From positions 1-48,252 of the forward strand of contig CAKZRR010000001.1 of assembly GCA_937146805.1 (NCBI GenBank): 48,252 nt of DNA, given 5' to 3'. The position numbers were made by a program, and so were the translations under genes. The stretch is from an uncultured Owenweeksia sp. (GTDB lineage Bacteria; Bacteroidota; Bacteroidia; Flavobacteriales; Schleiferiaceae). Shown in pieces: positions 30,456 to 36,481 of the stretch (positions are counted from its first letter, which is position 1; the number at the start of each line of letters is the position of its first letter). The notes beneath the pieces are model-generated. The model worked only from the letters and a program-made list of their open reading frames with translations. It had not been told where the DNA came from and made no database searches.

Positions 30456-32012
30456 ATGCGTAATCTCAAAAATGCTTTCACCCTTATTACTGTACTGGCT
30501 GGCTTTTTTGCAGTTGCGCAATCACAAAATAAAACTTTTACTCAAAAAATAATGAAGGAATGGGAACCTCTAATAGAAAGAAGTTCCCTGTACTCTTTTG
30601 ATGGAAAAGTTGTAGCCAAAATATGGACTGGGGACTCTGCAGAGTTTGTTGTTTTTGATTTGGTACAAAACGAGATTCGTCAATCCGAAAAAATTGCTTT
30701 TGATAAATTCTCCTCAAGCTTTTTAACTTTTGCGGATGACTCCACACTAAAAACTTTCTATTCTAATACCATTTACAAGAATGACGAAAGCTTTAGGGAC
30801 ATTCATTGCTTGACCTATAACGTAAGGAGCGGAAACTATACAAACCGTGCTATTTGTGAAACACCCGGCTATTTGTTCAAAATGGGGTTTAAGGAGCAAA
30901 TTAATGGCAATTTTTATTCATCTGTGTTTAGTGCTTTCCGTTCCTCAACCAAAAAAAAGAGCATTATTGTTTACCGGCCCGAAGCGAAAAACCCGGATGA
31001 AGAAATGAGGTTTGGTGTTATTATGCTAAATGAACTTCTTGAGATGGAATGGCATCAGGAATATGACTTTCCATTTGATAGAGAACATGCCTCCATTTCT
31101 GACTGGGCTGTTGATGACGATGGTATTGCTCATGCATTTTTTGCTATAAAAAATGAGGATGCCAAAAAAAGACAGAAGAACTACAACGGGATTTATATTG
31201 CCAGCTTTAACAAGAACGAAATAGCAAAAATTTCTCAATTAAATTTCACAAAAAGCTCTTTCGGTAGCCATCTAGAGGTTTTTAAATCAGACAAAGAAGA
31301 AAAGTTTGGGGCTTGTATGGGCTTCATGAATGAAAGCAAGCCTGAACTTATGATTTTTGATATAGAAGATAAGGAAAAGTTGAGGCCTATTGTTTCTATT
31401 TCCATCTATGATGAATTAAAAAATGCCGTAGAAAAAATGGATAGAAATAACCTTTTCTACACGGAACAACAATTGGACGAAATGCTACCCTACTATTCGC
31501 TTCAAATAAAAGAAATACGCATTTTAGACTCTGGTAATTACCTGATTTTTCTTAGAGATAGACATGTAGTCTATGGGGACTCGCGCTATGACTATACCAA
31601 GTCGTTAACCGTGCTAAATGTAAGTAGCTCTTTTGAAGTTAATTGGATTAGAAAAATTCCTATCCACTCATCCAGCACGTACTATGGGACAAACAATAGT
31701 ATTCTAAACTTAAAATCTGATCAAATTGAAGTGATTAATTATGTAAATCGTGAAAACCTTGGTAAGGTGGAAAAGTCCAAACTTCTAATGATGCGAGCAT
31801 ACAAACCAAAAAAAACACAGCCGAGTGTTTTATTAAAACACTCCCTTTCCCTAAAATCCGGTGTAGCCGAAACAACCATCTTGCTAGATACTGAAGATTT
31901 AGGTTTAACAAAAAAAACGATAGCGCACACTTCAAAAGTGTATAGGAAGGATAACAACTCTTGGGTAACCATTTTAAAAACCACCGAAGGACTAAAGCTT
32001 TTTACTTTTTAA
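30456..32012 (+). CDS. Secreted protein C, distant relative of the A paralogues
   Basis: A 518-residue protein with signal peptide MRNLKNAFTLITVLAGFFAVAQ. It shares the layout of A1-A3, such as LLEMEWHQEYDFPF followed by a VDDDGIAHAFFAI turn and a VNWIRKIPIHSS segment, but sequence identity is low. It starts 25 bases after B2 and so is probably cotranscribed with it. Function unknown. Confidence 0.8.
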   Translation: MRNLKNAFTLITVLAGFFAVAQSQNKTFTQKIMKEWEPLIERSSLYSFDGKVVAKIWTGDSAEFVVFDLVQNEIRQSEKIAFDKFSSSFLTFADDSTLKTFYSNTIYKNDESFRDIHCLTYNVRSGNYTNRAICETPGYLFKMGFKEQINGNFYSSVFSAFRSSTKKKSIIVYRPEAKNPDEEMRFGVIMLNELLEMEWHQEYDFPFDREHASISDWAVDDDGIAHAFFAIKNEDAKKRQKNYNGIYIASFNKNEIAKISQLNFTKSSFGSHLEVFKSDKEEKFGACMGFMNESKPELMIFDIEDKEKLRPIVSISIYDELKNAVEKMDRNNLFYTEQQLDEMLPYYSLQIKEIRILDSGNYLIFLRDRHVVYGDSRYDYTKSLTVLNVSSSFEVNWIRKIPIHSSSTYYGTNNSILNLKSDQIEVINYVNRENLGKVEKSKLLMMRAYKPKKTQPSVLLKHSLSLKSGVAETTILLDTEDLGLTKKTIAHTSKVYRKDNNSWVTILKTTEGLKLFTF

Positions 32013-32066
32013 AGTATCTCTAATTAGCCGTCTGTATTCAACCATCATCAAACCCCGCCAAATTCC

Positions 32067-32074
32067 TACCTTTG
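32067..32074 (+). promoter_or_regulatory. Candidate -7 box for ileS
   Basis: TACCTTTG, 25 bases ahead of the ileS ATG, matches TAnnTTTG. A TTTG -33 box is not evident at the usual spacing, so the call is weak. Confidence 0.4.
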
Positions 32075-32099
32075 CCGCTTCAAAAATTGGAGCACGAAT

Positions 32100-35000
32100 A
32101 TGGCGCGCAAATTCCCTGAGCACAAGCAATTAAACCTCCCCAACATAGGCGAGGAAATTTTACAATACTGGAAAGAGAATCAGATCTTTGAAAAGAGCAT
32201 CTCTTCCCGCCAAGGCAAACCTGCATTTACCTTTTACGAAGGGCCTCCTTCGGCTAATGGTATGCCGGGTATACACCACGTAATGGGGCGTGCTATTAAA
32301 GATATTTTTTGCCGATTTAAAACCCTACAAGGTTTTCAGGTAGAGCGAAAAGCAGGCTGGGACACCCACGGCCTACCTGTAGAACTGGGCGTAGAAAAAG
32401 AGCTAGGTATTACCAAAGAAGATATTGGTAAAAGCATAAGCGTAGAAGAGTACAACGCTGCTTGTAAAAAAGCTGTAATGCGCTACACAGATGTGTGGAA
32501 CGACCTTACCGAGAAGATGGGTTATTGGGTAGACATGGACGACCCTTATGTAACCTACAAGCCCAAATACATGGAAACCGTATGGTGGCTGCTCAAGCAA
32601 CTTTGGGATAAGCAACTAATCTATAAAGGCTATACCATTCAGCCTTATTCGCCTAAAGCCGGTACGGGGCTAAGCTCGCATGAGATAAATATGCCGGGTA
32701 GTTACCGCGATGTAACGGATACTACTATTGTAGCGCAGTTTAGATTAAAAAACCACCTGCCTCAAAGTATACTTAATGTCTTTGAAGGCCTTATTGAGTT
32801 AAGAAAACAAAAGGTACAATCTACAGATGAGGTAATCTTAGTTAGTCTGCAAAAAGCTTTAGAAAGAATTAGTGAGAGGCAGGTTTACTTTTTGGCATGG
32901 ACAACAACACCTTGGACACTACCTAGTAATACCGCACTTACGGTAAACCCTAAAATCAAATATTGCTTTGTTGCTGCAACCAATAAATATACCGGAGAAC
33001 AACAAATTGTGGTATTAGCAAAAAACCTATTTCAAAAACATTTTGATATCAATGGAGTAAATTTAGAAGACATAACAACGGGTACTTATAGTAGCATTCC
33101 TCATTCCAGTTCAAAGAATGGTCATTGGCAATATTTATTTGAAGTTTTAGGCAGTGATTTAGTGGGTATAAAATACGAGCAACTATTGCCCTATGCCAAG
33201 CCTTATGAAAATGCCGAAAATGCCTTTCAAATTATTCCTGGTGACTTTGTAACCACAGAAGACGGAACAGGCATTGTACACACGGCCCCTACCTTTGGTG
33301 CGGATGATGCCAAGGTAGCCAAAGATGCGGGTGTACCACCAATGTTGGTGCTAGATGAAAATGACAACCCTGTGCCATTGGTTGACTTACAGGGGCGTTT
33401 TACTAAAGACATGGGTGAGCATGCTGGCAAGTACGTTAAAAACGAATATTACACAGATGGCGAGGCTCCAGAGAAGTCGGTAGATGTAGAAATTGCTATT
33501 AAGCTAAAAGAGGAAAACAAGGCCTTTAAAGTTGAAAAGTATGTACACAGCTACCCACACTGCTGGCGTACCGATAAGCCTGTATTGTACTATCCGCTTG
33601 ATAGCTGGTTTGTAAAAGTAAGCGAACACAAAGAACGTTTAGTAGCCCTTAACAAAACCATTAATTGGAAACCTAAAGCTACAGGCGAAGGCCGATTTGG
33701 CAACTGGCTAGAAAATGCCAATGATTGGAATTTGAGCCGCTCGCGCTATTGGGGAATTCCATTACCAATATGGAGCACCGAAGACGGAGCAGAACGCCAA
33801 ATATTTGGCTCGGTGGCCGAATTAAAAGAAGCTTGCGATAAGGCGCTTGAAGCTGGTTTAATGACTTCACACCCCTTTGAGAGTTTTGAAGCGGGAAACC
33901 TTAGCGATGCCAATTACGACCAGATTGATTTACACAGAAACATCGTTGATAAAATAGTACTACAATCGCCAAGTGGTAAACCTATGCAGCGCGAAAGCGA
34001 CTTGATAGATGTATGGTTTGACTCAGGGGCTATGCCTTATGCACAGCAACATTATCCTTTTGAGAATGAGGATAAGTTTAGAGCCCCCTCCGCCCCCGAA
34101 GGGGGAACTGAGCAGAATCCTAGATGGCAAACTGCCAATCCAGCTATTTATGAGACTTTAAAGGAAAGGTCAAAGGAGCTTCGTAAAAACGAAACTGAAA
34201 CCGAGAAAATACTTTGGGCAGAGCTTCAAAACAAAAAGCTAGGCAATATCAAATTCAGAAGACAGCACATCATCGATCAATACATTGTTGATTTTGTTTG
34301 TATTTCAAAAAAACTGATTATTGAGCTAGACGGTAAATACCACCTAACTGCTGAGCAGAAAAAAGCGGACCAACTACGTACAGAAAAGCTAAGTGATTTA
34401 GGATTCTCAGTACTTCGTTTTACAAACGATGAAGTATTAAAAGATTTAAAAAAGGTTACCGATACCATATTTGAAACACTACAAAAAGCCCCCTTAGGGG
34501 GTTTGGGGGCTCCCGCTCGCTTCCCAGCTGATTTTATTGCCGAAGGCGTAGATCAAACGCGTGGTTGGTTTTACACCTTGCATACTATTGCTGGCTTGGT
34601 ATTCGATTCGGTGGCTTACAAAAATGTGGTGAGCAACGGCTTGGTATTGGATAAGAATGGACAGAAAATGTCCAAGCGTTTGGGCAATGCAGCCAATCCT
34701 TTTGAAACCATAAACAAGTACGGTGTAGATGCGGTTCGTTGGTATATGATTTCGAATGCGCAGCCTTGGGATAACCTAAAATTTGATGTTGATGGCATTA
34801 CCGAAGTTCAGCGCAAATTTTTCGGAACCTTGTACAATACCTATGGCTTCTTTTCGATGTATGCGAACATTGATGGATTTGAATGGAAAGATGATGCGCT
34901 AACTAAAGTAAGCGAAAGACCCGAGCTAGACCGATGGATTTTATCTAGAGTGCAGGTATTGCGCCAAACGGTAGAAAAAAGCTTTGAAGAATACGAGCCT

Positions 35001-36032
35001 ACACGTGCCGCCCGCGCTGTGCAGGAGTTTGTGGATGAAGAGTTGAGTAACTGGTATGTGCGCCTATGCCGAAGACGTTTTTGGAAAGGCGAGATGAGCC
35101 TAGACAAGCAAATGGCTTACGAAACGCTGTACCAATGTTTAATGGACATTGCACAGCTGATGAGCCCGGTGGCTCCTTTCTTTGCAGATTGGTTGTATCA
35201 AAACCTAAGTAGCCATCTGCCGAAAGGCAAAAAATTAGACTCCATACACTTAACAGAGCTTAGCCCTGTACAGGAAAACTTAATTGATGAACGACTGAAC
35301 GACCGGATGAAAATGGCGCAGCAGTTGAGCTCTATGGTTTTTTCGTTGCGTAAACGGGAAAACCTTAAAGTACGCCAGCCTTTGCAAAAAATGATGGTGC
35401 CCGCACTAAAGTCCGATACCGTTTCGTTGATAGAAAGTATTAAGCACATTGTGCTGGCCGAGGTAAATGTAAAAGAGTTGGAAGTACTGGAAGACGTATC
35501 GGGTATACTCACCAAAAAGCTAAAAGCCGACTTTAAAAAACTAGGTCCGCGCTTTGGTAAAATGATGAAACAATTGGCGGGTGCTATTGCTCAAATGGAT
35601 CAAGCGGCCATTGGACAACTGGAAGCGGACGGAAAATACAACTTGGATATTGAGGGTAATACAGCGGAAATTACGCTGAATGATGTAGAAATAATTACCG
35701 AAGATATACCCGGCTGGTTGGTGTTAAGCGAAGGCGGGCTAACCGTGGCCTTAGATATTAACCTTAGCGAAGATTTGACCAACGAAGGAATTGCACGAGA
35801 ATTAATTAACCGCATTCAAAACTTACGTAAGGAAAGTGGTTTAGAGGTAACCGATCGCATAAATTTAGCGGTACAAAAGGCGCAAGGTGTTGATGCCGCA
35901 GTACAACAATTTGGCGCCTATATTAGCGAAGAAACTTTGGCCAACCAATTGCAAATTACCGATCAATTGCCTAATGGTAGTGAAGTGCAATTTGATGAAA
36001 TTGAAACACGAATTTGGCTGGAACGAGTTTAA
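32100..36032 (+). CDS. ileS: Isoleucyl-tRNA synthetase with an in-frame DUF559 endonuclease-domain insertion
   Basis: A class I tRNA synthetase that charges tRNA-Ile with isoleucine. The motifs are HHVMGR (59-64), WTTTPWTLPSNTAL in the editing domain and KMSKR (856-860). Without the insertion it would be about 1166 residues, normal for the large HHVM-type IleS of Bacteroidota. Residues 661-804 are foreign: a mobile element encoding a DUF559/Vsr-like endonuclease domain (about 687-794; Glu702, Asp731, Glu742, Asp744, His748) joined by Gly/Pro/Ala-rich linkers. It sits after WFDSGAMPYAQQHYPF and before FPADFIAEGVDQTRGWFY, a surface loop in most IleS. The frame stays open, so the enzyme is probably still functional. 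It heads an ileS-dksA-lspA run. Confidence 0.96.
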   Translation: MARKFPEHKQLNLPNIGEEILQYWKENQIFEKSISSRQGKPAFTFYEGPPSANGMPGIHHVMGRAIKDIFCRFKTLQGFQVERKAGWDTHGLPVELGVEKELGITKEDIGKSISVEEYNAACKKAVMRYTDVWNDLTEKMGYWVDMDDPYVTYKPKYMETVWWLLKQLWDKQLIYKGYTIQPYSPKAGTGLSSHEINMPGSYRDVTDTTIVAQFRLKNHLPQSILNVFEGLIELRKQKVQSTDEVILVSLQKALERISERQVYFLAWTTTPWTLPSNTALTVNPKIKYCFVAATNKYTGEQQIVVLAKNLFQKHFDINGVNLEDITTGTYSSIPHSSSKNGHWQYLFEVLGSDLVGIKYEQLLPYAKPYENAENAFQIIPGDFVTTEDGTGIVHTAPTFGADDAKVAKDAGVPPMLVLDENDNPVPLVDLQGRFTKDMGEHAGKYVKNEYYTDGEAPEKSVDVEIAIKLKEENKAFKVEKYVHSYPHCWRTDKPVLYYPLDSWFVKVSEHKERLVALNKTINWKPKATGEGRFGNWLENANDWNLSRSRYWGIPLPIWSTEDGAERQIFGSVAELKEACDKALEAGLMTSHPFESFEAGNLSDANYDQIDLHRNIVDKIVLQSPSGKPMQRESDLIDVWFDSGAMPYAQQHYPFENEDKFRAPSAPEGGTEQNPRWQTANPAIYETLKERSKELRKNETETEKILWAELQNKKLGNIKFRRQHIIDQYIVDFVCISKKLIIELDGKYHLTAEQKKADQLRTEKLSDLGFSVLRFTNDEVLKDLKKVTDTIFETLQKAPLGGLGAPARFPADFIAEGVDQTRGWFYTLHTIAGLVFDSVAYKNVVSNGLVLDKNGQKMSKRLGNAANPFETINKYGVDAVRWYMISNAQPWDNLKFDVDGITEVQRKFFGTLYNTYGFFSMYANIDGFEWKDDALTKVSERPELDRWILSRVQVLRQTVEKSFEEYEPTRAARAVQEFVDEELSNWYVRLCRRRFWKGEMSLDKQMAYETLYQCLMDIAQLMSPVAPFFADWLYQNLSSHLPKGKKLDSIHLTELSPVQENLIDERLNDRMKMAQQLSSMVFSLRKRENLKVRQPLQKMMVPALKSDTVSLIESIKHIVLAEVNVKELEVLEDVSGILTKKLKADFKKLGPRFGKMMKQLAGAIAQMDQAAIGQLEADGKYNLDIEGNTAEITLNDVEIITEDIPGWLVLSEGGLTVALDINLSEDLTNEGIARELINRIQNLRKESGLEVTDRINLAVQKAQGVDAAVQQFGAYISEETLANQLQITDQLPNGSEVQFDEIETRIWLERV
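34081..34512 (+). mobile_element. DUF559 endonuclease element inserted in ileS
   Basis: A 432-bp element, exactly 144 codons. The left end is GAGCCCCC-tccg-CCCCC-gaa-GGGGG (34081-34105); the right end read in reverse is GAGCCCCC-aaa-CCCCC-taa-GGGGG (34512-34488). Each end can also fold by itself. Both ends are translated as Ala/Pro/Gly linkers. The body encodes one DUF559 domain: LRKNETETEKILW, KFRRQHIIDQYIVDFVC, IIELDGKYH and FSVLRFTNDEV. No intein residues are present at the junctions (no Cys/Ser start, no His-Asn end), so no protein splicing is expected. Confidence 0.85.
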
Positions 36033-36054
36033 GAGTTTTTAATTTTTATATTTG
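36028..36054 (+). promoter_or_regulatory. Candidate promoter for the dksA-like gene
   Basis: TATATTTG at 36047-36054 matches TAnnTTTG and lies 50 bases ahead of the ATG, just after ileS. A weak -33 candidate is TTTA at 36028. The dksA-lspA pair could thus be transcribed apart from ileS. Confidence 0.4.
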
Positions 36055-36103
36055 GCGGAATTTGAAAACTGCAACTTTGCAAGTTGCTCATTTAAAAAAG
36101 ATT

Positions 36104-36481
36104 ATGTCAGAAAACAAAGTAAGATATACCGATGCTGAATTGGAAGAATTTAAAGCATTGATACAGGATAAATTAGCCTCGGCAGAGAAAGATTTAGGAC
36201 TATTGAAAGAAAACTTTGCCAACGATAGAAGCAACGGAACGGACGATACCTCTCCTACCTTTAAAGCTTTTGAAGAAGGCAGCGATACGATGAGTAAAGA
36301 GGCAAATAGCCAGTTGGCGGCTCGTCAAGAAAAATTTATTCGCGACCTTAAAAATGCGCTTATACGCATTGAAAATAAAACCTATGGTATTTGCCGTGTT
36401 ACAGGCAAGCTTATAAATGCTGAGCGCCTTAAGCTGGTGCCGCATTCTACCATGAGTATTGAAGCCAAAAACAACCAATAA
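36104..36481 (+). CDS. DksA/TraR-like protein lacking most zinc cysteines
   Basis: A 125-residue DksA/TraR-family protein that would bind in the RNA polymerase secondary channel. The ATG at 36104 (MSENKVRYTD) is chosen over an upstream ORF start that lacks family similarity. A coiled coil runs to about 90. The zinc-finger region YGICRVTGKLINAERLKLVP keeps only Cys97 of the four usual cysteines (Thr100 replaces the second), as in the Bacteroidota branch beside lspA. It is six bases upstream of lspA. Confidence 0.9.
   Translation: MSENKVRYTDAELEEFKALIQDKLASAEKDLGLLKENFANDRSNGTDDTSPTFKAFEEGSDTMSKEANSQLAARQEKFIRDLKNALIRIENKTYGICRVTGKLINAERLKLVPHSTMSIEAKNNQ

Follow-up and report, generated by a model that had tools for sequence, protein, structure and literature searches.

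An in-frame DUF559 nuclease element in ileS of an uncultured Owenweeksia and its relatives in conserved genes of Bacteroidota

The isoleucyl-tRNA synthetase gene (ileS) of an uncultured Owenweeksia sp. contains an in-frame insert that encodes an EDxHD/Vsr-like (DUF559) nuclease domain. Comparison of sequences places this insert in a family of elements of approximately 430-450 bp, each consisting of the nuclease domain between two C/G-rich palindromic ends in inverted orientation. As far as such comparison can establish, these elements lie in frame in their hosts, are bounded by their ends, are variably present, have been copied between sites and lose their nuclease in frame, and the best reading of the ends is that they double as Pro/Gly-rich peptide linkers. 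Mobility of the element appears well supported on these grounds. That the mobility is driven by the nuclease is inferred, no cleavage, homing or transposition having been observed, and the existence of full-length IleS with the insert in cells is inferred as well. We consider it probable that the insert is a mobile, non-splicing, in-frame nuclease element of a small family, spread by its own nuclease together with host repair.

To our knowledge, homing nucleases are generally viewed as needing introns or inteins in order to occupy essential coding sequence. The elements described here appear to occupy essential genes without splicing, including those for tRNA synthetases, methionine synthase and DNA-repair helicases, across the phylum. 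The in-frame relatives found in many key enzymes of Bacteroidota point to an overlooked kind of mobile element. If this is true, it would explain odd extra domains in annotated enzymes, offer a candidate mobilising enzyme for in-frame palindromic repeats, and supply protein engineers with linkers and insertion points that occur naturally and are tolerated.

The insert, its ends and its nuclease domain

The window, which is the whole stretch of DNA analysed, comprises 48,252 nt of contig CAKZRR010000001.1 in assembly GCA_937146805.1; the 3.16 Mb genome to which it belongs is referred to below as the window genome. Features of the ileS locus are collected in Table 1.

Table 1. Features of ileS and its insert in the window
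Feature	Position	Strand	Basis
ileS, isoleucyl-tRNA synthetase, 1310 aa including the insert	32100..36032	+	open frame and profile search
IleS motif WFDSG, on the left side of the insertion loop	34014..34028	+	conserved motif
Net inserted segment as given by the sequence-only reading, 432 nt, 144 codons	34081..34512	+	gap comparison
Element proper, from left AGCCCCC to right GGGGGCT	34082..34511	+	direct reading; limits set by analogy to the paired metH copies in L172
Left terminal inverted repeat, AGCCCCCTCCGCCCCCGAAGGGGGAACT, C-rich arm and C5/G5 hairpin; putative in-frame linker APSAPEGGT	34082..34109	+	direct reading
DUF559 (EDxHD/Vsr-like) nuclease domain	34158..34484	+	profile match; core D, E, D, H present
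Right terminal inverted repeat, AGCCCCCTTAGGGGGTTTGGGGGCT, inverted copy of the left; putative in-frame linker APLGGLGA	34487..34511	+	direct reading
IleS motif FPADF, on the right side of the insertion loop	34521..34535	+	conserved motif

The host parts of the frame match the equivalog model TIGR00392 (NCBIfam profiles, E 7e-287). The gap between the WFDSG and FPADF motifs measures 164 residues, compared with 20-23 in the 27 empty relatives read, which corresponds to a net gain of about 144 codons. A reading made from the sequence alone had described an insert lying in frame between these motifs, free of stop codons in the host frame and bounded by C/G-rich terminal inverted repeats. We find the same: the frame is open throughout the gene, the 144 codons contain no stop, and the repeats are real and can be read directly at both ends. 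The extent it proposed stands as the net inserted segment, the element proper being one base shorter on each side. Residues 661 and 807 of the window IleS align with residues 539 and 541 of the IleRS chain 8c8w_A. Since a structure model of IleS with its insert was of low confidence (11 sequences, pLDDT 46.8), we claim placement of the insert on the IleS surface only from this alignment. Elsewhere in the gene, the stretch at 32640-33179 (IleS residues 181-360) displays an unusually high protein difference between the window genome and G003, the other genome with this insert; pN reaches 0.22-0.40 in three windows of the comparison and is matched only by the last window of the gene (0.41), as if part of ileS had another history.

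The nuclease domain matches PF04480 (DUF559) with 133.4 bits (E 7.2e-39) against a curated cut-off of 20.6, without an internal stop, and the insert meets the criteria for the DUF559/EDxHD nuclease superfamily, namely a profile score above the cut-off and a D...ExD...H core. It falls below the cut-off of NF007294 (71.6 bits against 218). The closest profile matches in PDB are 3hrl (E 3e-31), which is NGO0050 by title, and 3r3p (E 3e-7), the catalytic domain of I-Bth0305I, which PDB calls a mobile intron protein. When a structure model of the domain (60 aligned sequences, pLDDT 84.9, ends of low confidence) was compared using Foldseek, 3hrl and two chains of 3r3p were the sole PDB matches at E <= 0.001, with an E-value of 2.6e-4 for I-Bth0305I; E. 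coli Vsr (E 0.1) and mitoribosomal proteins were among the weak fold matches. The initial assignment of the domain as a Vsr-like DUF559 nuclease was therefore right in kind: its nearest solved homologues are I-Bth0305I, an EDxHD homing endonuclease, and NGO0050, and E. coli Vsr matches its fold weakly. A defence-gene reading was set aside, as the best PADLOC match is a homing-endonuclease model (E 4.7e-6). Matches in PHROGs were weak and comprised endonuclease and unknown families.

Of 108 distinct embedded copies, 105 keep the core D, E, D and H residues intact, as do all 40 free-standing copies. Two leuS copies and one metH copy are the exceptions; they lack intact catalytic residues and still have open frames. 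Finite dS was obtained for 6 of 11 pairs, and in these the dN/dS ratio of the insert is 0.05-0.14. In both genomes with the ileS insert, no ATG, GTG or TTG occurs in frame within 30 codons before or 20 codons after the start of the domain, from which we infer that the nuclease is to be expected only as part of IleS.

A pattern for the ileS ends, allowing up to 2 mismatches, matches the 3.16 Mb window genome solely at the two ends of the insert, with 0 control matches. The sequence-only reading had proposed a genome search for further copies of the ends as a check, absence of which would count against it; no such copies were found with this pattern, and here the outcome goes against that reading. 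Single-strand DNA folding of the ileS ends is not better than that of shuffled sequences (z -1.35 and -0.28). The two ends of this element alone match each other no better than they match the ends of other elements (rank 18 of 70). Over all 70 elements, the match between an element's own ends averages 29.9 as against 19.1 for the ends of others, the highest of 5000 permutations being 21.7, and for 19 of the 70 the own end is the best match in its row.

Host genes, insertion sites and alleles

DUF559 matches were found in 143 of 393 genomes of the order. Among the matches listed, 45 of 150 lie in frames of at least 350 aa, and all 45 were read. Their hosts, with representatives named by profile and the rest by sequence likeness, are leuS (15), metH (9), recG (7), restriction-modification genes (4), ileS (2), recB-like genes (2), hsdR (2), hemD (2), hisD (1) and aroC (1). 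For a scan of the whole phylum, in which the query was built mainly from embedded copies, the best 80 relatives were kept. Judging from record titles, all of them come from Bacteroidota. In 64 the long frame is shared with another gene and 16 are free, a proportion that is not a frequency because the query favours embedded copies. The hosts of these 64, named by likeness and in 20 cases by profile, are leuS (12), metH (12), ileS (10), recG (7), metG (4), valS (3), and two each of recB-like genes, gmk and alpha-xylosidase; uvrA, recQ, ispF, mazG, CCA-transferase, an aminotransferase, a WbcJ-like reductase and a helicase occur once each, and two frames remain unnamed. The order and phylum sets overlap in part and are not additive.

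Altogether, related elements lie in a common open frame with more than twenty kinds of host gene. In five of these they form terminal extensions (N-terminal in hemD, gmk, ispF and recQ, C-terminal in hisD), where an open frame alone is no proof of translation as one protein. Several carriers are named cultured strains, which makes assembly error unlikely; cultured carriers include Marinilabilia salmonicolor for ileS (L170), Cellulophaga baltica for leuS (L186) and Tamlana nanhaiensis for recG (L165). The suggestion that such nuclease domains enter loops of other conserved genes is supported: many of these genes harbour an in-frame element of this type, and one gene, the metH of L172, holds two copies.

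The sites are recurrent. All 12 ileS inserts found occupy the same loop. The leuS insert lies just before a TTRP-type motif in 12 of the 14 loci shown (27 are in the tree) and at another site in 2, and all 3 valS loci for which the right flank is available also have the insert just before the TTRP motif, so that leuS and valS elements sit at an equivalent place in two different synthetases. No shared target-site sequence was seen by eye in the junctions compared (ileS, leuS/valS and metH). Tandem repeated palindromic ends are visible by eye beside the embedded nuclease in L123 (G005), L187, L170 and L177, with the frame kept. Short secondary model matches in L006 and L191 were taken as spurious and left out of element counts.

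Phylogenetic trees of the domain were built on 110 columns and contain many weak forks. The smaller tree holds 70 domains, selected in part because their frames are long, and has a clade of 35 rows (SH-aLRT 93) made up entirely of embedded copies; its counterpart in a 148-row tree, a clade of 113 rows (95), includes 14 free-standing copies. The ileS copies fall in several places of the larger tree (6 changes, at least 2 of them forced by starred branches), where the window insert groups with the hisD insert (97). Domains of less than 85 aa, identical or near-identical rows and, in the larger tree, the partial copy L003 were dropped. Viral contigs contain 53 relatives, mostly in short frames of their own. 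One contig of the viral collection (L238, 1-3177) carries valS with an in-frame element, and this valS is probably host DNA or a prophage flank.

We searched 45 genomes, including the window genome, for ileS and read 30 loci at the site: 2 are full, 27 are empty and 1 has a lone palindrome in the same loop (G020). The full alleles belong to the window genome and G003, which are of the same genus; G001 and G002 of that genus are among the empty ones. The empty alleles in relatives that the first interpretation had called for are thus present, even within the genus. The recG search covered 81 genomes of a single genus; among the 30 loci read, 4 are full, 25 are empty and 1 retains an in-frame remnant of 24 nt. 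The metH search, also confined to one genus, covered 121 genomes, of which 118 had a match and 46 were read at two sites; these comprise best matches and stretches picked partly for long frames, and the shares are therefore not frequencies. Site 1 is full in 10 genomes and without the element in 36. Site 2 has 2 full elements in frame, 1 full element with a broken frame (G498) and 4 nuclease-less forms that are in frame with both ends kept, the remaining 39 genomes being without the element. Three genomes (G408, G425 and G445) combine a full copy at site 1 with a nuclease-less copy at site 2. One further in-frame nuclease-less metH form is found in L183, and a lone hairpin occurs in metH as well. 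In G498 (L323, about 2100-2640), the break in the host frame falls inside the C-rich left end of the full site-2 element and may reflect either real slippage or a sequencing error.

Imprecise loss had been expected to break the host gene. This expectation is backed only indirectly: the partial losses that we see, namely the nuclease-less forms and the recG remnant, are in frame, and one metH is broken at the element. G362 (full) and G428 (empty) form the closest metH pair compared, with flanks that are 85 and 87% identical; in the full allele the element stands in place of roughly ten codons of the loop. Inspection of the metH pairs by eye revealed no target-site duplication, and a DDE transposon reading was set aside; with flanks that differ by 13-15%, a very short duplication could be missed.

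Age and copying of the elements

The clearest sign of element-sized copying comes from L172, a Flavobacterium MAG in which a single metH frame, cut at the contig start, holds two copies at two sites. The copies are 83.6% alike over 458 alignment columns and are bounded by the inverted ends, with unrelated flanks; because they are alike only from end to end, they also fix the limits of the element.

Between the window genome and G003, the synonymous difference pS is 0.33 in the insert (bootstrap range 0.23-0.43) and 0.68 in the host ileS (0.63-0.72). Across 833 overlapping 143-codon windows of the host, pS reaches a minimum of 0.49, and the domain alone yields 0.40 against 0.68 for the host. 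With a pS about half that of its host, the insert is younger than the divergence between the ileS genes of the two lineages. The left flank has no dip in pS and the right flank only a slight one (0.55), which argues against a long co-conversion tract as in classical homing. A second case is the metH site-2 pair G362/L158 (host 0.33, insert 0.15). We compared 104 same-site pairs; pairs in which insert and host were both close to saturation, and those with fewer than 150 host codons, had been excluded. The synonymous difference is lower in the insert in 7, higher in 2 and neither in 95. The comparison was thus largely uninformative, with most pairs giving no indication of recent transfer, and it suggests that most copies are old, vertical or saturated. 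The three other scorable ileS pairs do not have a younger insert, and one has the reverse; recG copies look largely vertical. Support for a homing endonuclease function is indirect only, consisting of the polymorphism of full and empty alleles and the younger insert in the window genome and G003.

Proposed mode of spread, alternatives and known systems

According to the mechanism that we propose, the nuclease would be made solely as a domain of the host enzyme and would cleave DNA at empty alleles, at its own hairpin ends, or at both. Host repair would then copy the element into the break, using the element as template. Copying within the same gene would result in homing-like spread to the same loop, and rare ectopic copying would deliver the element to new host genes. 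Only in-frame insertions into tolerant loops would survive, and loss would likewise be tolerated only in frame, which in this proposal keeps the element in essential genes without splicing. We regard as evenly balanced the broader idea that such elements are a third way beside introns and inteins, that is, a homing-type nuclease without start or stop and never removed, whose ends would serve both as DNA ends and as linkers and which the host would make, shelter and carry. Full elements may land on nuclease-less copies and lone hairpins that already reside in the same loops.

The alternative that survives best, and which we consider possible though not favoured, is that the elements inserted independently into a few tolerant loops and were then inherited vertically with frequent loss and without homing, recurrence reflecting tolerance only. 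It overlaps with our explanation in that both need a mobile element, and the two differ on same-site homing. The 95 of 104 pairs without a difference in divergence between insert and host, the distribution of ileS inserts over several DUF559 branches, and the junction residues, which differ between the window genome and G003, all speak for it; the clearly younger inserts in ileS of these two genomes and at metH site 2 of G362/L158 speak against it.

We think it rather unlikely that mobility belongs to the palindromes, with an unrelated enzyme such as a Y1/RAYT transposase moving them (compare REP) and the DUF559 gene captured between two of them as a passenger. Palindromes do occur without the nuclease in ileS of G020 and in metH, both in nuclease-less forms and as a lone hairpin, and 7 of the 8 genomes checked, the window genome among them, carry Y1_Tnp genes elsewhere. 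However, G445, listed as 99% complete, carries full and nuclease-less metH forms with no Y1_Tnp match, both palindrome types that were searched in the window genome occur only at the ends of DUF559 copies, and the core is intact in more embedded copies than a passenger would need. REP/RAYT systems have a small enzyme gene, that of a Y1 HUH transposase, between inverted hairpin ends, and the present elements resemble them in this layout. They differ in that the enzyme is EDxHD-like and not Y1 HUH and in that the elements lie in frame within genes; the criterion of a Y1 transposase with palindromes is not met, given that the element encodes DUF559 and that G445 carries elements without a Y1_Tnp match.

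Very little speaks for the insert as a stable accessory domain that aids its host enzymes, for example in RNA or DNA binding, and arose by domain shuffling and selection. The low dN/dS of the domain would fit, as would the mitoribosomal proteins among the weak fold matches and the fact that Vsr-like folds can serve RNA-binding proteins, FASTKD4 being a Vsr-like protein at least according to the title of its source. Such a role is difficult to reconcile with sporadic presence (2 of 30 ileS loci), with hosts as unrelated as tRNA ligation, methionine synthesis, DNA repair and restriction enzymes, with two copies in one gene and nuclease-less in-frame derivatives, or with three embedded copies that have lost catalytic residues and kept an open frame.

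Inteins with homing endonucleases are translated in frame with an essential host and contain the nuclease inside the element, and the ileS insert is like them in both respects. Despite this, its in-frame position near conserved motifs and its homing-endonuclease-type domain, we dismiss with near certainty a remnant of an intein or intron that is removed from protein or RNA, since the ileS frame is open throughout, Pfam and NCBIfam searches revealed no Hint or intein domain, the junctions (R-A on the left, A-P-A-R before FPADF on the right) have neither a nucleophile nor a terminal Asn, as the initial reading had already stated, and Rfam produced 0 matches in 31900-36200 at E up to 1, so that neither the intein criteria (Hint splicing domain, junction nucleophiles) nor that of a group I/II intron (catalytic RNA around the nuclease gene) are met.

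With these alternatives weighed, the mobile in-frame nuclease element can be compared with its closest known counterparts. It shares with I-Bth0305I a homologous catalytic domain, insertion into conserved genes and recurrence at one site. I-Bth0305I is described as a phage-derived, long, multi-domain enzyme, and homing endonucleases of this fold are characterised in the same way (PMC3943268). The ileS-type element, unlike it, is a lone nuclease domain with terminal inverted repeats, without intron or intein, that shares the frame of the host protein. Among in-frame bacterial MITEs, Rickettsia palindromic elements (RPE) are the element type that comes nearest; they are described as palindromic repeats of 105-146 bp that lie in frame in conserved proteins, including guanylate kinase, and are translated and tolerated; the review treats such elements as non-autonomous (PMC2229807; PMC3733652). 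The present elements meet the criterion of a palindromic element in frame in conserved genes. Full copies encode a nuclease and do not meet that of a short non-autonomous element, and nuclease-less derivatives fit the RPE type. A stricter reader could class the family as a nuclease-bearing variant of in-frame palindromic elements. We found no paper on in-frame DUF559 elements in a literature search whose coverage mostly excludes subscription journals, and our claim of newness rests on this and on the failed membership tests.

The free-standing DUF559 proteins PRK09767 and NGO0050 have the same domain and, unlike the insert, are stand-alone genes. The window genome also contains a second full DUF559 copy (G000:C13, L002 1390-1950), which is free-standing in a 133-aa frame and is adjoined on both sides by genes that by eye resemble methylmalonyl-CoA mutase subunits. 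Its palindromic ends are of a different, double-hairpin type, and the hairpin searched is absent elsewhere in the window genome. Similar copies with like flanks, again judged by eye, are found in G001 (L008) and G003 (L020).
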